Source: Paracoccaceae bacterium (lineage in GTDB: Bacteria > Pseudomonadota > Alphaproteobacteria > Rhodobacterales > Rhodobacteraceae). Taken from it: 40,106 bases of DNA. Positions 25,844-36,829 of the stretch are shown here, piece by piece. Position numbers and translations under genes: made by a program. Each line of letters begins with the position of its first letter. Position 1 is the first letter of the stretch. The stretch is taken from contig JAQTYE010000002.1 in assembly GCA_028749255.1 (NCBI GenBank), positions 1-40,106 on the forward strand, read 5' to 3'. The notes beneath the pieces were generated by a model that worked only from the letters and a program-made list of their open reading frames with translations, did no database searches and was not told the origin of the DNA.

Positions 25844-26380
25844 ATGAAGCACATCGTATTTCTGTTACTTCTTGCCGGATGCGGGCTCAGCGATCCGCGC
25901 GGGCTTTATGCCTTGTCACAGGTCAATCCGGCGCATGACGACCCCGGCGGTCTGGCGGTTGCCATTGCCCCACCTTCGACGCTGCGGCTGATGCCCAAGG
26001 GCACGCGGCTGATCATGACGCTGCAGCGTGGCGATGCAGCGCCGGAAAAGCAGATTTTTACTCTGGTTCCGGCGGCGGCCGAGGGGCCGGTGGCGCAGGC
26101 GCAGGTTTTCGCCCTGCGCGACACCGATCTGCCCGCATTGCGCGCAATGCAGGCGCAAAACGACCAGCGTCTGGAAGCAGGACAGCAGAGCACACTTGCG
26201 CTGTCGCTCGAAGCCGACGCCTGCCGCACGGTTCGTGAACTTCCGCAAGATGCGCGCGGTTCTGTCTGGATTCGGACCCGCGCGGATGCCGATTTCGCGC
26301 CGCTGCTCGTTAACACTCCGCTGGCCAAAATTCCGGGCTGGGAGGACGCTGCGAACAAAATCCTACCCTGCACGCCTTGA
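25844..26380 (+). CDS. small lipoprotein, unknown function
   Basis: A 178-residue protein with a short lipoprotein signal peptide, MKHIVFLLLLAGCGLSDP, whose lipobox LAGC puts the lipidated cysteine at residue 13. Serine and not aspartate does not follow at +2 (Gly), which suggests outer-membrane sorting. I recognise no domain in the mature part. AGGAAAG precedes ATG 25844; the ORF-track start at 25772 runs through the divergent promoter region and is rejected. A hairpin follows the gene. Confidence 0.75.
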   Translation: MKHIVFLLLLAGCGLSDPRGLYALSQVNPAHDDPGGLAVAIAPPSTLRLMPKGTRLIMTLQRGDAAPEKQIFTLVPAAAEGPVAQAQVFALRDTDLPALRAMQAQNDQRLEAGQQSTLALSLEADACRTVRELPQDARGSVWIRTRADADFAPLLVNTPLAKIPGWEDAANKILPCTP

Positions 26381-27414: not shown

Positions 27415-28098
27415 TCAGATCCGGCGCAAGGCTGCGGCGGCCACCAACGGACCGGTTGCGACGCCGGTGGGCGACCCGCCCGCAGGTTCTTCGGTGATCG
27501 CCAGCGTGGCATTGGCGACCAGCGCGGTCAGATTCGCCGGGATCGGCATCGCCGCCTGCCCCTGATGCGGCATCACGCCCAGAGAAATCGGCGCGCCATC
27601 ACCCTGAATCAGCCAAAGTTCGAAATCGCGTCCTTCGGCTGGCGCCGCGCCGCCCATCGACACGCGCATCTCACCCGAGGCCTCGTCATAAAGCGCGGCC
27701 AGACGGACGCTGCCATCCTCGGACACCATATCAGAAATCCACAGCGGGCCAGGCGCGGGCGGCAGCGGCTGCCCCAGCCACAATACAGCGGCCAGCACGG
27801 CGGTGGCCAGCCCCGAAGCCCCGGCGAACCAGCCCCAGACCGAGATCTTGCCCGCGGGCAGACCGAACAGGCGCCGTTCGACATCGGTCCAGACCCGGGC
27901 GGGCGGTGTGATCGGGCGCACCTCATCGGCGAGCGGATCGAAATGTGTTTCCCAACGGGCGACTTCACGCGCGAAATCGGCATCAACGTGGATCCGGCGC
28001 GTCACGTCCTGCCGCGTCGCCAAATCCAGCGTGCCCAGCACATATTCGCCAGCCAGGGCGATATCGTCGTCGGTCAAGGGGCTGCGCGGGTCGGTCAT
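27415..28098 (-). CDS. RskA-type anti-sigma factor
   Basis: A 227-residue membrane-anchored anti-sigma factor. The N-terminal cytosolic domain (LAGEYVLGTLDLATRQDVTR, residues ~17-36, then ARWETHFDPLADE) should bind the sigma factor. One transmembrane helix lies near residues 90-108 (WGWFAGASGLATAVLAAVLW), and the C-terminal part is the RskA periplasmic domain (DFELWLIQGDGAPISLGVM). It contains no cysteine, so it is not a zinc anti-sigma factor like ChrR. ATG 28098 overlaps the sigma-factor stop (ATGA), and translation is probably coupled. Release would normally need proteolysis of the periplasmic domain. Confidence 0.88.
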   Translation of the reverse strand: MTDPRSPLTDDDIALAGEYVLGTLDLATRQDVTRRIHVDADFAREVARWETHFDPLADEVRPITPPARVWTDVERRLFGLPAGKISVWGWFAGASGLATAVLAAVLWLGQPLPPAPGPLWISDMVSEDGSVRLAALYDEASGEMRVSMGGAAPAEGRDFELWLIQGDGAPISLGVMPHQGQAAMPIPANLTALVANATLAITEEPAGGSPTGVATGPLVAAAALRRI

Positions 28099-28640
28099 GG
28101 CGACAGGCACTCCCTGAGTTGGAGCAGGCTGCGGCGCAACCAGCTGCGCATCGTGTTCAGCGGCACGGCGAACCGTTCGGCCAGTTCCTGATAGCTGTCA
28201 CCCTCGACATAGGCGCGGCGCACGGCTTCGGCACGCGCGGGTTCCAGCGCATCAAGACAGGCCTCGATCCGACGCCCTTCGGATCGGGTGATTGCGGCGG
28301 CCTCGGGGCCGGGTGTCGGGTCCGGCACCGCATCGGCGGCCTCCAGCCCGACGGCCGCATTGCGCCGCGCGCGCAGCCGGTCGATCGCATGGTTGCGCGC
28401 AACCGCGTTCATCCATGCCGCAGGGCTGGCCACATCGGGAAGATAGCGGTCGGCATTGTTCCAGATCTTCACGAAAACCTCCTGCAACGCGTCTTCGGCC
28501 TCTCGGCGGTCTTTCAGAAGACGCAGGCAGATCGCAAAAAGTTTCGGAGACAGTGCAGAATAGAGCGCGGCAAACGCGGCCCGGTCCTTCAGGGCAACCC
28601 GGGCCAGCAACCCGGCAAGCTCTTCCGTCTGGACTGCCAT
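28095..28640 (-). CDS. ECF RNA polymerase sigma factor (SigK-like)
   Basis: A 181-residue ECF sigma factor. Region 2 (residues ~20-85) has LRLLKDRREAEDALQEVFVK and the -10-recognition stretch ASPAAWMNAVARNHAIDRLR; region 4 (residues ~125-178) has YQELAERFAVPLNTMRSWLR. The ORF-track start at 28931 covers the divergent operon; ATG 28640 gives a normal N-terminus (MAVQTEELAGLLARV), though its ribosome site is poor. Its divergent partner is the FAD/DUF1365/Cfa operon, the same company kept by mycobacterial sigK (from memory). I assign it the GCAAC-N17-CGTC promoters seen at the operon and DUF2177 gene; I see no such element upstream of itself. Confidence 0.92.
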   Translation of the reverse strand: MAVQTEELAGLLARVALKDRAAFAALYSALSPKLFAICLRLLKDRREAEDALQEVFVKIWNNADRYLPDVASPAAWMNAVARNHAIDRLRARRNAAVGLEAADAVPDPTPGPEAAAITRSEGRRIEACLDALEPARAEAVRRAYVEGDSYQELAERFAVPLNTMRSWLRRSLLQLRECLSP

Positions 28641-28683
28641 CTGACTTTTCAGCGCCTCTTTGCGGGGTTTTCCCAGGCTGGCT

Positions 28684-28709
28684 GCAACCTTTTTCGGGGC
28701 TGCACCGTC
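28684..28709 (+). promoter_or_regulatory. ECF-type promoter of the FAD/DUF1365/Cfa operon
   Basis: GCAAC (28684-28688) and CGTC (28706-28709) are separated by 17 bases, the AAC/CGT pair typical of ECF promoters. It lies 34 bases before the GTG start of the operon. An element upstream of the DUF2177 gene has the same two boxes, and 11 of its 17 spacer bases match this one. Confidence 0.6.
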
Positions 28710-28743
28710 CCATCTGCACAGACAATGGCAGAGCGAGGCGCAG

Positions 28744-30027
28744 GTGACAACCAAGGGATTGAAAATCGCCGTGATCGGCAGCGGGATTTCCGGTCTGGGG
28801 GCGGCCTGGCTTCTGGCGCCGCAACACGAGGTGGTGATCTTTGAAGCCGAGGCACGCCCCGGCGGCCATGCGCGCACCGTGCAGGCCCAAGGCGTGGCCG
28901 TCGATACCGGCTTCATCGTGTGCAACCGCAAGACCTATCCCCTGTTTATCCCGCTGCTGGAACATCTGGGCGTGGCACTAACCCCCAGTGACATGAGTTT
29001 TGCCGCCAGTTTCGGCGGCGGGGCCTATGAATATGGCACCACCCGGCCGCTGGATATGTTTGCGCAAAAGCGCCGCCTTGCCGATCCGTCGCATTGGCGG
29101 ATGATCCGCGACATCTTGCGGTTTTTCCGCGCCGCGCCCGACCATGCCGGGGCTTCGGGCAGTATCGGCGATCTGATCGCCACACTGGGCCTTGGGCCCG
29201 AATTCCGCGACCGTTTTCTGATGCCGATTTCAGGGGCGATCTGGTCCACGCCGACACGCGACATGCTGTCCTTTCCTGCTGCCAGTTTCATCCGGTTTTT
29301 CGACAATCACGGCTTGCTGAGCGTTAGTGCACAGCCGCAATGGCTGACCGTGGCGGGGGGATCGGCCAGCTATGTTACGGCGCTGTTGCGGGCAACGCGG
29401 GCAGATCTGCGGCTGAGGTGTCCGGTGCGCAGCGTCACCCGTGATGCCAACGGCTTGCACGTTATCAGCACCCGGGGGACAGAGCGGTTTGACCGGGTGA
29501 TTTTCGCCACTCACGCCCCGCAGGCGCTGGCCTTGCTGGCACAGCCCGACACCGAAGAGCGCGCGATCCTGGGCGCGCTGCGCACCGAGGCGAACCGCAT
29601 GGTGCTGCATTCTGACACCCGGCTGATGCCGCAGCGGCGGGCGATCTGGTCATCGTGGAACTATGTTACCGCAGGCGACAAGGCGCTGAGCGACCGTCCG
29701 ATCAGCCTGTCTTACTGGATGAACCGGCTGCAGCATCTGGACACGCCGCGCCCGCTGATCGTGACCGTGAACCCCGAAATCGAGCCCGATCACATCCATG
29801 ACGAAGCGATCCTGCACCATCCACAATATGACGCCGCGGCGCTTGTGGCGCAGGCCCGGCTGGGGGCGATTCAGGGCCGGGGCGGCGTGCATTATGCGGG
29901 CGCATGGACGCGTTACGGATTTCACGAAGACGGGCTGTTGTCGGCCCTGCGGGTCGCGCAGGCACTGGGGACACCCTGGCCATTGGGCGCTGACCCTTGG
30001 GCAGAAACTGCAAAGGCCGCGCCATGA
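28744..30027 (+). CDS. FAD-dependent amine-oxidase-like oxidoreductase
   Basis: A 427-residue flavoprotein of the amine oxidase/phytoene desaturase superfamily: the FAD Rossmann loop VIGSGISGLGAAW near residue 13, EAEARPGGHARTV for ribityl binding, and the C-terminal FAD segment GRGGVHYAGAWTRYGFHEDG. GTG 28744 follows GAGG; upstream ATG-like codons of the track (28660) lie in the promoter. It heads the DUF1365-Cfa operon and overlaps DUF1365 by ATGA. Homologues sit beside Cfa-like enzymes in many bacteria and probably oxidise or desaturate a membrane fatty acyl chain after methylation (inference; R. sphaeroides homologues have been tied to furan fatty acids, from memory). Confidence 0.88.
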   Translation: MTTKGLKIAVIGSGISGLGAAWLLAPQHEVVIFEAEARPGGHARTVQAQGVAVDTGFIVCNRKTYPLFIPLLEHLGVALTPSDMSFAASFGGGAYEYGTTRPLDMFAQKRRLADPSHWRMIRDILRFFRAAPDHAGASGSIGDLIATLGLGPEFRDRFLMPISGAIWSTPTRDMLSFPAASFIRFFDNHGLLSVSAQPQWLTVAGGSASYVTALLRATRADLRLRCPVRSVTRDANGLHVISTRGTERFDRVIFATHAPQALALLAQPDTEERAILGALRTEANRMVLHSDTRLMPQRRAIWSSWNYVTAGDKALSDRPISLSYWMNRLQHLDTPRPLIVTVNPEIEPDHIHDEAILHHPQYDAAALVAQARLGAIQGRGGVHYAGAWTRYGFHEDGLLSALRVAQALGTPWPLGADPWAETAKAAP

Positions 30028-30797
30028 GCGATCTGTGGCAGGGCGCGTTGGTTGACTGCGCGATCTGGCACGCGCGCACGGGCGATGCACGCCGCGAGTT
30101 CCGCTACCGTGCCACTTATCTTGCGCTGCCGATCAAGGCCTTCGAGGCCGGGACGCTGCCGATCCAGCCCGACGGCGCGGGGCTGTGGTCGATCCGGCGG
30201 CGCGATTATGGCGCACGTGACGGCAGCGCGCTGAGCGATTTCATCGGCGATCAGCTGCGCCCCGCGGGCCTGCAGGAGTGCGATATCACCCTGATCACCA
30301 TGGCGCGCAGCACCGGATATGGCTTCAACCCGGTCAGCTTCTGGCTGGCACGCGACGCGGGCGGGCTGCGTGCCGTGCTGGCTGAGGTGTCGAATACCTT
30401 TGGCGAGCGGCACCTGTATCTGTGCCGTCACCCTGACAATCGTCCGATCACCCGATCTGACCGGATCTCGGGCGAGAAACTGTTCCACGTCTCGCCGTTT
30501 TTGCCGCGGGCGGGGCGCTATGTGTTTCGCTTCGATCCGGGGCCGGGGCGGTTTGGCGCCTGGGTCGACTGGATCGACGCCGAAGGCACATTGCGGTTGC
30601 AAACTTCGGTGGCGGGGCCAGCCCGCGCATTGACGCCGCGTCTGTTGCGCCGCGCGGTCTGGCGTCACCCGCTGCAGGCGCAAAAGGTGATGGCGCTTAT
30701 TCTTTGGCAGGCCGTGCAACTTTTCCTGCGCGGCATCCGTTTCCATTCCAAACCCGCGCAACTGCCCCGGGCCCGGTCCGAAGCAAAAGACAGGTAA
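30024..30797 (+). CDS. DUF1365 family protein
   Basis: A 257-residue soluble DUF1365 protein with the family blocks RREFRYRATYLALPI near residue 33, YGFNPVSFWLARD near 104-116 and FGERHLYLC, then EKLFHVSPFLPRAG. Its biochemical role is not established, but it is almost always encoded between an FAD amine-oxidase-like gene and a Cfa-like methyltransferase, as here. It overlaps the previous gene by ATGA and is followed by 6 bp before the Cfa-like gene. A role in modifying acyl chains is inference from context. Confidence 0.9.
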   Translation: MSDLWQGALVDCAIWHARTGDARREFRYRATYLALPIKAFEAGTLPIQPDGAGLWSIRRRDYGARDGSALSDFIGDQLRPAGLQECDITLITMARSTGYGFNPVSFWLARDAGGLRAVLAEVSNTFGERHLYLCRHPDNRPITRSDRISGEKLFHVSPFLPRAGRYVFRFDPGPGRFGAWVDWIDAEGTLRLQTSVAGPARALTPRLLRRAVWRHPLQAQKVMALILWQAVQLFLRGIRFHSKPAQLPRARSEAKDR

Positions 30798-30803
30798 GAG
30801 CCG

Positions 30804-31976
30804 ATGTTTGAACGTCAGATTGAAGACAAGCTTCTGAAAAGTCTTGATAAGATACAATATGGCAGCATTGCCCTGACCACCCCCGACGGCACGGTGCGCG
30901 GGTTCGAGGGCCCCTTGCGCGGCCCCGCCGTGGATCTGACCGTCACCGATTGGCGCGCCTTTCCGCTGGTTGCGGCACGCGGCGACATCGGCCTGACCGA
31001 AGCGTATCGCGATGGCTGGATCACCACCCGCGATCTGAGCGCGTTTCTGACCTTTGGGCTGCACAATGAGGCGGCGGTGGAGCCGTTCTTGTATGGCAGT
31101 CGGCTGCAATCATTGCTGGTGCGCGCACTGTATTTCATGACGCGCAACACGCGGCGCGGGTCGCTGCGCAATATCTCGGCCCATTACGATCTGGGGAATG
31201 AATTTTACCGGCTCTGGCTGGACGACACGATGACCTATTCCTCGGCGTTGTTCGCCCCCGAGGATGCGCGCGCCCCCGACCCGCTGGTCGCCGCACAGCA
31301 CCGTAAATATGACCGGATTCTGGATGGTCTGGGGGGTGGTTCGGGGCGGTTGCTGGAAATCGGCTGCGGTTGGGGCGGCTTTGCGGAACGTGCCCTGACC
31401 CGAGGCGATTTCGCGGCGAAAGGGCTGACGTTGTCGCACGAACAGGCGGCCTTTGCCCGCGCGCGTCTGGGCCAGGGCGCCGAAATCGCGCTGCAGGATT
31501 ACCGTGATGAACGCGGGCGCTTCGATCATATCGTCTCGATCGAGATGTTCGAGGCCGTGGGCGAGCAATACTGGCCTGTCTATTTCGACAAGCTGCGCGA
31601 GGTGATGGCCCAAAAGGGCCGTGCCATGGTCCAGACAATTACCGTGGCCGGCAGCTATTTCGACCGCTACCGCGCGGGCGGCGATATGATCCGCAGCTTC
31701 ATCTTTCCGGGCGGCATGCTGCCCAGTCCGGGGCGCTTCGGGGCCGAGGCGGCGCGCGCCGGGCTGCGGATCGAAGACGCGCATGGCTTCGGGGCGGATT
31801 ACGCGCGCACCCTGCGGGACTGGCTGACCCGGTTCGAGGCACGGCTGGCCGAGATCCGTGCACTGGGCTTTGACGAGGCTTTCATCCGCGTCTGGCGGTT
31901 CTATCTGGCGGCCTGCATCGCGGCCTTTGACACCGGGCGCACCGATGTTTACCAATACCGGCTGGCCCATGCCTGA
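30804..31976 (+). CDS. Cfa-like SAM-dependent fatty-acyl methyltransferase
   Basis: A 390-residue member of the cyclopropane-fatty-acyl-phospholipid synthase family: HYDLGNEFY near 127-134, the SAM loop LLEIGCGWGGF at 183-193, SIEMFEAVG near 245-253 and ADYARTL at 331-337. In classical Cfa (E. coli, from memory) bicarbonate is held by Cys139 in YSCAYW and His266 in LHTIG; here these positions read YSSALF (Ser147) and VQTIT (Gln277). The glutamate of MFE and the tyrosine of ADY remain. The enzyme therefore may not make cyclopropane rings but another methylated acyl chain, which the FAD protein then oxidises. It overlaps the SDR gene by 8 bp. Confidence 0.87.
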   Translation: MFERQIEDKLLKSLDKIQYGSIALTTPDGTVRGFEGPLRGPAVDLTVTDWRAFPLVAARGDIGLTEAYRDGWITTRDLSAFLTFGLHNEAAVEPFLYGSRLQSLLVRALYFMTRNTRRGSLRNISAHYDLGNEFYRLWLDDTMTYSSALFAPEDARAPDPLVAAQHRKYDRILDGLGGGSGRLLEIGCGWGGFAERALTRGDFAAKGLTLSHEQAAFARARLGQGAEIALQDYRDERGRFDHIVSIEMFEAVGEQYWPVYFDKLREVMAQKGRAMVQTITVAGSYFDRYRAGGDMIRSFIFPGGMLPSPGRFGAEAARAGLRIEDAHGFGADYARTLRDWLTRFEARLAEIRALGFDEAFIRVWRFYLAACIAAFDTGRTDVYQYRLAHA

Positions 31977-32700
31977 GGCCCCGCGCATCTGGATCATGGG
32001 CGCGTCAGACGGGATCGGCGCGGCGCTGGCGCGCGCGCTGGCGGCGCAGGGTGCGCGGCTGATCCTGTCGGCCCGATCCGAGGGGCGGGTGCAGGCGCTT
32101 GCGGCCGAACTCGAGGCCGAGGCGATTGCGGCGGATGTGGCCGACAGTGCCAGTCTGCAGACGGCAGCGGATCGGATCGCAATGAGCGGACCGCTGGACC
32201 GCGCGATCACGCTGGCTGCGATCTATGATCCGGGTCGGGTCATGGCGGTTGACCCGGCGCTTGCGGCGCAGATTGTCACGGTCAACCTGACGGGCAGTTT
32301 CAATTTCGTCCGTGCGGCGGTGCCGCTGTTGCGACCGGGCGGGCAACTGGCGCTGACCGGATCGGTTGCGGGCTATGTCGGGCTGCCGCAGGGACAGATC
32401 TATTCCGCGACCAAGGCGGGCGTCATCAATCTGGCCGAGAGCCTGCGCGCCGAGTTGGCGCCACGCGTCGATGTGCGGCTGATCTGCCCCGGTTTCGTGG
32501 CAACCCGTCTGACCGAGAAAAACGACTTCGCGATGCCGGGCCTCTTGCAACCTGAGCAGGCTGCGCAGACCATCCTTGCAGGTCTGGACGGGCGTGGCTT
32601 TGAAATCCATTTTCCGCGCCGCCTGACCTGGCCGCTGAAACTGCTGCGCGCTTTGCCCTATGGGCTCGCGCTGCCCCTGACCCGGAGGTTCGCCCGATGA
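31969..32700 (+). CDS. short-chain dehydrogenase/reductase
   Basis: A 243-residue classical SDR: the cofactor loop GASDGIGAALARAL at 11-24, catalytic Ser132 in LTGSVAGY, and Tyr145/Lys149 in YSATKAG. ATG 31969 overlaps the Cfa-like gene by 8 bp and gives MPEAPRIWIMGASDGIG; the longer ORF-track start lies inside that gene. Its ATGA overlap with the next gene keeps it within the operon. Substrate unknown; a ketoacyl or aldehyde product of oxidised membrane lipid is a reasonable guess from the operon. Confidence 0.9.
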   Translation: MPEAPRIWIMGASDGIGAALARALAAQGARLILSARSEGRVQALAAELEAEAIAADVADSASLQTAADRIAMSGPLDRAITLAAIYDPGRVMAVDPALAAQIVTVNLTGSFNFVRAAVPLLRPGGQLALTGSVAGYVGLPQGQIYSATKAGVINLAESLRAELAPRVDVRLICPGFVATRLTEKNDFAMPGLLQPEQAAQTILAGLDGRGFEIHFPRRLTWPLKLLRALPYGLALPLTRRFAR

Positions 32701-33401
32701 TCCGCCCCCTGCTTGCGCCGCTTGTGCTGATCCTGACGCTGGCCTTCGCGCTGTCGCCGCTGGCGAGTAACGGCTTCAACGGGTTTACCCCGGGCCAATT
32801 CCCGGTGGTGCAGGATCATTGGCCGGTGCAGCCGGTGGGCTGGGCGTTTTCAATCTGGGGGCTGATCTATCTGTGGCTGACGGCGGGGGCGGTATACGGG
32901 CTGCTGCGGGCACGCGACGATCTGCGCTGGACCGAGATGCGCGCCCCCTTGGCTATAAGCCTGCTGATCGGGGTGTTCTGGATTGCGGTCGCCAATCTGC
33001 AGCCGTTGGCCGCCACGGTGATGATCATCTTCATGGCGGCGGCGGCGATTGTCGCGCTGTTGCGCGCGCCCGATGGGTTTTGGGCGGTGGGGCCGGTGGG
33101 GCTCTATGCCGGGTGGCTGACGGCGGCGACCGGCGTCGCGATTGCGGTGGTTCTGGGCGGCTACGGTGTTCTTTCGGCGCAGGTGGCGGCGCTGGTGCTG
33201 TTGGCGCTGGTGCTGGGCGTCGCACTGAGCGTGCAATGGCAGCGCCCCGGTGCATTCAGCTATGGATTTGGCGTCGTGTGGGCGTTGATGGGGGTGATTG
33301 TGGCCAATCTTGATCCCGTGAATCTGCCGGTGATCGGGCTTGCGGGCTTTGGCATTACCGCTTTGGTGGCCCTTGTTATTTTGAGGAAGGAAGCATTGTG
33401 A
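32697..33401 (+). CDS. TspO/tryptophan-rich sensory protein-like membrane protein
   Basis: A 234-residue, strongly hydrophobic protein with about seven helices. The segment VQPVGWAFSIWGLIYLWLT resembles the TspO/MBR signature (PPGWVFGPVWTLLY type), and membership in that family is my best reading; it is longer than the usual ~160-residue five-helix TspO. TspO proteins bind porphyrins and heme-like tetrapyrroles and are linked to oxidative stress. It is translationally coupled to the SDR (ATGA). Confidence in the family name is moderate. Confidence 0.65.
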   Translation: MIRPLLAPLVLILTLAFALSPLASNGFNGFTPGQFPVVQDHWPVQPVGWAFSIWGLIYLWLTAGAVYGLLRARDDLRWTEMRAPLAISLLIGVFWIAVANLQPLAATVMIIFMAAAAIVALLRAPDGFWAVGPVGLYAGWLTAATGVAIAVVLGGYGVLSAQVAALVLLALVLGVALSVQWQRPGAFSYGFGVVWALMGVIVANLDPVNLPVIGLAGFGITALVALVILRKEAL

Positions 33402-33949
33402 TGATTGCGAGTCTGGTAAAAACCGCGGCGCTGAGCGTTCTTGTGGCATTTGGCGCGGGCGTTGCACTGGCGCAGGAGGCCGCGCCCGGCTTCACGTTCG
33501 AGTCGATCGACGGCGGCACGATCGACACCACCGATTGGCGTGGGCATCCGGTGCTGGTGGTCAACACCGCCTCGATGTGTGGCTTCGCCCCGCAGCTTGA
33601 AGGGATGCAGGATCTGCATGAAACCTTGGGGCCGAAGGGATTGATCGTGCTGGCGGTGCCGTCGGACGATTTCGCACAGGAATATGACAGCGCGGCCAAG
33701 GTCAAGGAATTCTGCGCGCTGACCTATGGCATCACCCTGCCGATGACCGACATCACCCATGTGCGCGGCGCGCAGGCGCACCCATTCTATCGCTGGCTGC
33801 GCGAGACGCATGATTTCGTGCCAATGTGGAACTTCAACAAGGTGTTGCTGGATGGTGATGGCAAGGTGGTGGCGACCTGGGGGGCGCTGACCAAGCCAGG
33901 GTCGGGCGCGATCACCAAGGCCATCGCGCCGCTTTTATCAGGCAGCTGA
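33401..33949 (+). CDS. periplasmic glutathione-peroxidase-like protein
   Basis: A 182-residue thioredoxin-fold protein with a Sec signal peptide (MIASLVKTAALSVLVAFGAG, then VALAQ, cleavage near residue 25). The peroxidatic Cys60 lies in VNTASMCGFAPQLEGMQ and the Trp143/Asn144 pair in PMWNFNK. The catalytic glutamine of the usual CNQF motif is missing: this site reads SDDF at residues 88-91. No clear resolving cysteine is present; Cys105 lies in KEFC. It may therefore be a weak or altered peroxidase. AGGAAGGA serves either GTG 33398 or ATG 33401. It is the last operon gene and overlaps the convergent DUF2177 gene by 12 bp. Confidence 0.88.
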   Translation: MIASLVKTAALSVLVAFGAGVALAQEAAPGFTFESIDGGTIDTTDWRGHPVLVVNTASMCGFAPQLEGMQDLHETLGPKGLIVLAVPSDDFAQEYDSAAKVKEFCALTYGITLPMTDITHVRGAQAHPFYRWLRETHDFVPMWNFNKVLLDGDGKVVATWGALTKPGSGAITKAIAPLLSGS

Positions 33950-34342
33950 GATCTGGCGGGCGATCATCACACCTGCCCAGGCCGCGCCCCCCGTCAAGGC
34001 GGCCCCCCAGGTCATATCAAGGATTACCTGCTCGAATGACCAGCCGCGCAATGTTGCCAGATTGGTGAATTCATAGGTTCCATAGCACAACAACCCCAGC
34101 AGGGCGCCACCAAGCAACGCCTGCATCGGGCGCCCTGCTGCCAGTGCCGGAACCGACACGAACCAAAGCACCCCGCCGATGTAAAACAGGTAAAACACCG
34201 CCGCCGGACCCAACCGCAATGGATCGGCCAGCATATCGCCAACATGGCGGGCGAAAACGGGCTTGATAATCGTGCTGATACCGACGGCATCGACGACAAG
34301 AAAGATCACGAGTGTGGAAAGGTATAGGACAAGCAGCTGCAT
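33938..34342 (-). CDS. DUF2177 membrane protein
   Basis: A 134-residue DUF2177 protein with four transmembrane helices, including the family features LVVDAVGI in helix 1, VFYLFYIGGVLWF and YEFTNLATLRGW before WGAALTGGAAWAGV. AGGAG lies seven bases upstream of ATG 34342. Its promoter carries the same GCAAC-N17-CGTC element as the divergent FAD/Cfa operon, so it likely belongs to the same sigma-factor regulon despite facing the other way. Function is unknown. Confidence 0.88.
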   Translation of the reverse strand: MQLLVLYLSTLVIFLVVDAVGISTIIKPVFARHVGDMLADPLRLGPAAVFYLFYIGGVLWFVSVPALAAGRPMQALLGGALLGLLCYGTYEFTNLATLRGWSFEQVILDMTWGAALTGGAAWAGVMIARQISAA

Positions 34343-34369
34343 GGGGCGTCTCCTGAGGTTTCCCTAAAA

Positions 34370-34395
34370 GACGTGGAAGCCGCGCAAAAAGTTGC
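34370..34395 (-). promoter_or_regulatory. ECF-type promoter of the DUF2177 gene
   Basis: On the minus strand GCAAC (34391-34395) and CGTC (34370-34373) are 17 bases apart, with the spacer TTTTTGCGCGGCTTCCA closely matching the one before the FAD/Cfa operon. The start codon is 28 bases downstream. Confidence 0.6.
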
Positions 34396-36803: not shown

Positions 36804-36829
36804 GGAACCACATCGCCCCTGATCGCGTT
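36804..36829 (+). promoter_or_regulatory. weaker ECF-type promoter candidate
   Basis: GGAAC and CGTT are separated by 17 bases, 36 bases before the exported-protein start. It resembles the two GCAAC-N17-CGTC elements but the boxes and spacer match less well. Confidence 0.3.

Follow-up and report, generated by a model that had tools for sequence, protein, structure and literature searches.

We have analysed a stretch of 40,106 nucleotides from a Paracoccaceae bacterium (GenBank assembly GCA_028749255.1, contig JAQTYE010000002.1, positions 1 to 40,106), which we will call the window. It contains the gene of a SigK-like sigma factor of the extracytoplasmic function (ECF) type, the gene of its RskA-type anti-sigma factor and, divergent from them, an operon predicted to form furan fatty acids (the ufa operon). 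Our main conclusion is that this one sigma factor, with its anti-sigma factor, very probably controls the ufa operon, the neighbouring DUF2177 gene, a fasciclin gene and folE2 as parts of a membrane-lipid response. The promoter sites, their conservation, the co-variation of one sigma residue with one promoter base and the nested distribution of genes have been computed; transcription from the sites and, beyond it, the signal, which lipid is made and what DUF2177 does are our inferences.

The boxes of the ufa operon (GCAACCTTTTTCGGGGCTGCACCGTC) and of the DUF2177 gene (GCAACTTTTTGCGCGGCTTCCACGTC) are exact copies of GCAAC-N17-CGTC and share 11 of their 17 spacer bases. They lie where the original prediction had placed them (Table 1), and its distance of 34 bases to the operon is correct; the distance to DUF2177 is 27 bases instead of 28. 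With the refined pattern GCAACYTT-N14-CGTM we have found four matches in this genome: the ufa operon, DUF2177, the fasciclin gene (contig C155) and folE2 (contig C206). The folE2 box is at L379:1543-1568 (own genome, C206), with 89 bases from the start of the box to the start codon. The fasciclin site recurs in genome G304 and the folE2 site in two genomes of the same genus, G308 and G311. The known targets of sigma-E in R. sphaeroides include RSP_1087-1091 (the ufa operon), the fasciclin gene RSP_1409 and folE2 RSP_1852 (PMC7074977), so that the members of the regulon other than DUF2177 match targets of the singlet-oxygen sigma-E. The SigK-like factor appears to hold much the same gene set as sigma-E, because the ufa operon, fasciclin and folE2 are common to both.

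The boxes are conserved among relatives. The one upstream of DUF2177 is found in all 11 genomes which have both a SigK-RskA-type locus and DUF2177, with a chance of 0.0012 per 120-base upstream region; it is found in none of the 7 same-genus genomes without the SigK-type cassette, which are of the RpoE type. In Mangrovicoccus DUF2177 is on another contig, and the box is still 5' of it. In the region divergent from the sigma gene GCAAC-N17-CGT[C/A] is present in nearly all SigK-type loci. The exceptions are S. aestuarii, which has GAAAC, and one genome and P. isoporae, in which the spacer is shifted by one base. In G304 the sigma gene is not divergent and the box stands before ufaD instead; in Paracoccus the divergent box precedes a fasciclin gene placed ahead of ufaD. 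Conservation thus spans Salipiger, Mangrovicoccus, Paracoccus and same-genus genomes, and does not include RpoE-ChrR-type genomes. In UBA6796 (L257 / L274), the sister of the window species, ufaD, ufaO, ufaM and most of the short-chain dehydrogenase (SDR) gene have been deleted, and the box and the sigma/anti-sigma pair persist. The same genome has also lost DUF2177.

A second line of evidence comes from residue 166 of the sigma factor, which sits in the region-4 recognition helix PLNTMR[S/T]WLRR: Ser is found with GCAAC and Thr with GAAAC. Fasciclin-type SigK genomes have G[A/C]AAC-N17-CGT 5' of the fasciclin gene, and an exact AAC-N17-CGT is present in 32 of 36 loci, compared with 2.1 expected from shuffling. 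The rule for residue 166 was recorded before 40 further loci were fetched. In these Ser goes with GCAAC in 4 of the 4 scorable loci, and Thr with GAAAC in the other scorable loci except L350, which is a lone divergent match. The overall tally of residue 166 against the second base of the -35 element is Ser/GC 22, Ser/GA 0, Thr/GA 57 and Thr/GC 1. At least three changes of the Ser166 label fall on well-supported branches of the tree. The conservation of both boxes in SigK-type genomes and this co-variation support the original prediction that both units are under the control of one SigK-like factor. An analogous role of residue 78 in setting the last promoter base (G with Ile, C with Asn) was suggestive and was set aside as confounded with phylogeny. 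In SigK homologs the loop of residues 64-79 (window numbering; for example 78 Asn/Ile) differs between CGTC and CGTG genomes and may set the last base of the -10 element.

The place of DUF2177 in the same lipid response as the ufa operon, which had also been proposed, is supported because its distribution nests within that of the genomes with DUF1365/UfaO. In a survey of 298 genomes of the family, nearly one per genus, 260 have DUF1365. DUF2177 is present in 121 of these 260 and in 1 of the 38 others (Fisher 1.7e-8, uncorrected for kinship, with the overlap tallied by hand from two lists). Of 18 genomes of the genus, 9 have both DUF2177 and DUF1365 and the other 9 have neither (9/9 vs 0/9); this search used the window's own DUF2177 protein, by which a very divergent copy may be missed. 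In Chlamydomonas the genes which require SAK1 for their induction by singlet oxygen include CFA1/2, DUF1365, DUF2177 and GPX5 (PMC4067076). The AlphaFold model of DUF2177 (predicted local distance difference test score 95.6) is a four-helix membrane bundle, with Asp18, Glu91 and Asp109 invariant. A fold search with the model gave a best match of E 1.3 and a sequence search gave no solved relative.

It may still be that the boxes are real SigK-type promoters and DUF2177 is a general membrane-stress protein, outside the synthesis and handling of furan fatty acids; we regard this as somewhat unlikely. In R. sphaeroides RSP1087-1089 are co-regulated although the furan lipid does not depend on them (PMC7380195), 139 of the 260 DUF1365 genomes do without DUF2177, and the family has no function on record. 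A general stress protein does not agree well with its presence in a single one of the genomes without DUF1365, with the joint loss of both genes in the genus or with the joint induction of DUF1365 and DUF2177 in Chlamydomonas.

Most relatives which we have examined have a different regulator: their ufa operon is divergent from RpoE-ChrR, often behind a TGATCC-N18-CGTA promoter. A homolog of the window's sigma factor is present in 125 of the 298 genomes, many of them adjoining a fasciclin gene. Apart from the window, only Salipiger, Mangrovicoccus, Paracoccus and some genomes of the same genus were found to have SigK-RskA next to the ufa operon. None of the 11 SigK-type loci tested, window included, has an RpoE box (TGATC-N18-CGTA) before ufaD. 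The place of the ChrR-type cupin anti-sigma factor is taken by RskA_C, and the Cupin_7 matches in this genome are under the cut-off. The UfaD proteins of SigK-type loci form one clade (approximate likelihood-ratio test, SH-aLRT, 100). The window's UfaD is 62-81% identical to the SigK-type copies and 46-49% to the RpoE-type ones, even those of the same genus. Because SigK-type UfaD forms its own clade, distant from the RpoE-type copies, the SigK-type cassette is, as judged by sequence, a separate lineage which stands where most relatives have RpoE-ChrR.

Two genomes, G006 (L176) and G066 (L164), have ufa operons of the RpoE lineage with no adjacent RpoE and with GAAAC-N17-CGTG boxes. They look like cases of true rewiring, possibly by independent switches to SigK control. 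They can be cited for another history, in which an ancestral RpoE-ChrR regulon exchanged its regulator at the existing sites, one gene at a time, without arrival of a cassette. The sigma gene and ufaD hold the same divergent position in both types of locus, and boxes are found before DUF2177 of Mangrovicoccus and before fasciclin and folE2 of the window genome, all of them away from the cassette. The single UfaD clade and the gap between the two ranges of identity speak against such an exchange, and we consider it rather improbable. A fasciclin gene is also found near RpoE-ChrR-ufa loci (L222:1940 in genome G009, L178, L181, L285 and L286).

Several results weigh against control of these genes by the SigK-like factor. 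The loose pattern GCAAC-N17-CGTC has 59 matches genome-wide compared with 54 for the reversed control, with no enrichment, and the refined pattern is hardly enriched in this genome (4 vs 3 matches). No box was found 5' of the sigma gene, which thus shows no sign of autoregulation. The independent pairs for residue 166 number only 2-4 and all agree, but with so few a sign test cannot become significant; strict phylogenetic significance is therefore not reached. S. aestuarii, which lies within the Ser clade, has Thr166 with one GCAAC and one GAAAC site. The original prediction was to be refuted if the motif, searched in this genome and its relatives, was no commoner at gene starts than by chance. 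Taken literally this test would fail, because a genome-wide count lacks resolution; the search in relatives did find the motif conserved at both genes. As counts of the loose pattern across the genome show no enrichment, the evidence is comparative. That the boxes match by chance or belong to another regulator, a different sigma factor reading the ufa operon and DUF2177, could draw on the equal frequency of the loose motif and its control and on the further ECF factors encoded in the genome, and it is very improbable given the conservation of the boxes of both genes across genera (0.12% chance per site), a co-variation of residue 166 which held on the loci fetched later, and the finding of no RpoE-ChrR in this genome, where the best ChrR-cupin match is under the cut-off.

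Some other candidates have been rejected. The window has three copies of the loose pattern against 0.58 expected, a number reached in 1 of 100 shuffles and thus weakly unusual. We judge the third to be due to chance: it lies in a coding region and fails the refined pattern. The weaker copy which had been suggested to add a small exported protein to the regulon (36804-36829) is not accepted either, as the second base of its -35 element is neither C nor A and it is found only in the nearest relative. Motif discovery upstream of the sigma genes of 60 relatives gave a terminator-like shared repeat, not a promoter. In several genomes a box inside the sigma gene is an artefact of the conserved codons of KLFG-x-CLR. 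These codons mimic the box (GAAACTTTTCGG...CTGCGT) in the sigma genes of many relatives, for example at L363:4090 and L367:4445, and are a trap for genome-wide motif scans.

The regulation which we propose would proceed as follows. The RskA-type anti-sigma factor would hold the sigma factor at the membrane, until a signal of membrane or oxidative origin, for which singlet oxygen and lipid peroxides are the likeliest candidates, causes RskA to free it. The sigma factor would then direct RNA polymerase to GCAAC-YTT-N14-CGTM promoters. The operon would give methylated and furan fatty acids which trap the oxidant, its glutathione peroxidase (GPx) would reduce lipid peroxides, and DUF2177 would serve the same lipid pathway.

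The features of the locus are given in Table 1. The anti-sigma and sigma genes overlap, and the tightly packed operon (28744-33949) which runs divergent from them contains in order the genes of the flavin adenine dinucleotide (FAD), DUF1365, Cfa-like, SDR, membrane and GPx proteins. The adjacent genes of a FAD desaturase, a DUF1365 protein and an acyl methyltransferase are those expected of the Ufa pathway (Pfam compared with PMC7380195). In R. sphaeroides the FAD protein RSP1091 is UfaD and the DUF1365 protein is UfaO; with UfaM they lead to methylated furan fatty acids (PMC7380195). The operon of the window is predicted to encode this pathway, because its gene families and their order match UfaD, UfaO and UfaM of R. 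sphaeroides. The sigma factor has regions 2 and 4 only, as an ECF factor of a SigK-RskA pair should, and the adjoining gene codes for an anti-sigma factor with RskA_C and one membrane span. Cys128 and Cys178 are invariant in 119 of 119 sigma homologs; a pair of cysteines 50 residues apart is a SigK-RskA feature, compared here with the M. tuberculosis protein by spacing alone. The score with the NCBIfam SigK model is 138 bits, under the cut-off of 226, so we call the protein SigK-like and not SigK proper. The membrane protein of the operon has no match in Pfam or NCBIfam. Loci which have lost ufaO and ufaM still keep it, together with GPx.

Table 1. Genes and promoter-like boxes of the window (ORF, open reading frame).
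Feature	Position	Strand	Observations
Third exact copy of the loose pattern	25937-25962	-	Within coding sequence of the opposite strand; no match to the refined pattern
RskA-type membrane anti-sigma factor	27415-28098	-	Pfam RskA_C 6e-20; hydrophobic stretch, residues 91-109
SigK-like ECF sigma factor	28095-28640	-	Pfam Sigma70_r2 + Sigma70_r4_2; 181 residues; Ser166, Cys128, Cys178
SigK-type box of the ufaD-ufaO-ufaM operon, GCAAC-N17-CGTC	28684-28709	+	Exact match; 34 bases 5' of the FAD GTG
UfaD-like FAD desaturase (amine-oxidase family), operon gene 1	28744-30027	+	Pfam Amino_oxidase; GTG start 28744
UfaO-like DUF1365 protein (furan-forming step)	30024-30797	+	Pfam DUF1365 1e-58; PMC7380195
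UfaM/Cfa-like fatty-acyl methyltransferase	30804-31976	+	Pfam CMAS 9e-71
SDR, overlaps the methyltransferase gene	31969-32700	+	Pfam adh_short
Multi-pass membrane protein	32697-33401	+	ORF, overlapping both neighbours
Exported GPx-like protein, last operon gene	33398-33949	+	Pfam GSHPx 3e-21
DUF2177 four-helix membrane protein	33938-34342	-	Pfam DUF2177 2e-37; convergent with the operon end, overlapping; ATG 34342
SigK-type box of the DUF2177 gene, GCAAC-N17-CGTC	34370-34395	-	Exact match; 27 bases 5' of the ATG
Weak copy, GGAAC-N17-CGTT	36804-36829	+	Not accepted as a regulon member

A wider proposal joins three statements: in several lineages of the family command of the lipid response to singlet oxygen has passed from RpoE-ChrR to SigK-RskA, the Ser/Thr exchange determines the -35 base and thereby sets apart two SigK sub-specificities, and DUF2177 is dedicated to the furan-fatty-acid pathway, as a component not recognised until now. 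We give their joint truth about an even chance. In sister species the same protective lipid regulon appears to be run by sigma/anti-sigma pairs which are unrelated to each other, and this makes the replacement of a regulator directly testable. Our results also offer a rule of one residue and one base for the choice of the -35 element by an ECF sigma factor, provide a strong lead for the conserved membrane family DUF2177, and tie the mycobacterial SigK regulon to the biology of singlet oxygen and furan lipids.

The closest known system is the mycobacterial SigK regulon, which in the M. tuberculosis complex comprises the sigma factor, RskA, the UfaA1 operon and the fasciclin proteins MPT70/83 (MPT83-DipZ-MPT70) (PMC10540498; PMC7509140). 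Both systems have an ECF sigma factor and an RskA-type anti-sigma factor beside an operon with a Ufa methyltransferase (UfaA1 in M. tuberculosis), fasciclin targets and a pair of cysteines with a spacing of 50 residues, at 133/183 in SigK of M. tuberculosis (PMC7509140). They differ in that the sigma gene of the window stands outside the operon and diverges from it, that DUF2177, folE2 and GPx are added, that autoregulation is not seen and that the NCBIfam SigK cut-off is not reached. RpoE-ChrR of R. sphaeroides (ECF11) also controls ufaD, ufaO, fasciclin and folE2 and adjoins the ufa operon (PMC7074977; PMC7380195). However, its sigma factor is a different one (RpoE of relatives is 28-35% identical to the window's), the anti-sigma factor is the zinc/cupin protein ChrR and not RskA, and the promoter is TGATCC-N18-CGTA instead of GCAAC-N17-CGTC. 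A partial precedent is the SigK-like 'RpoE' of R. capsulatus: the 'RpoE/ChrR' pair of this species is nearer to SigK/RskA of M. tuberculosis than to RpoE/ChrR of R. sphaeroides, and it is induced by singlet oxygen alongside a glutathione peroxidase, cryB and folE2 (PMC7074977). Unlike the window, R. capsulatus has no homologs of the RSP_1087-1091 operon, and the authors call its gene setting unique (PMC7074977). Finally, other genera of the family have fasciclin-type SigK-RskA loci with the same sigma/anti-sigma pair, the same spacing and a GMAAC-N17-CGT promoter; these loci differ in that their target is the neighbouring fasciclin gene and in having mostly GAAAC...CGTG with Thr166, compared with GCAAC...CGTC and Ser166 in the window.

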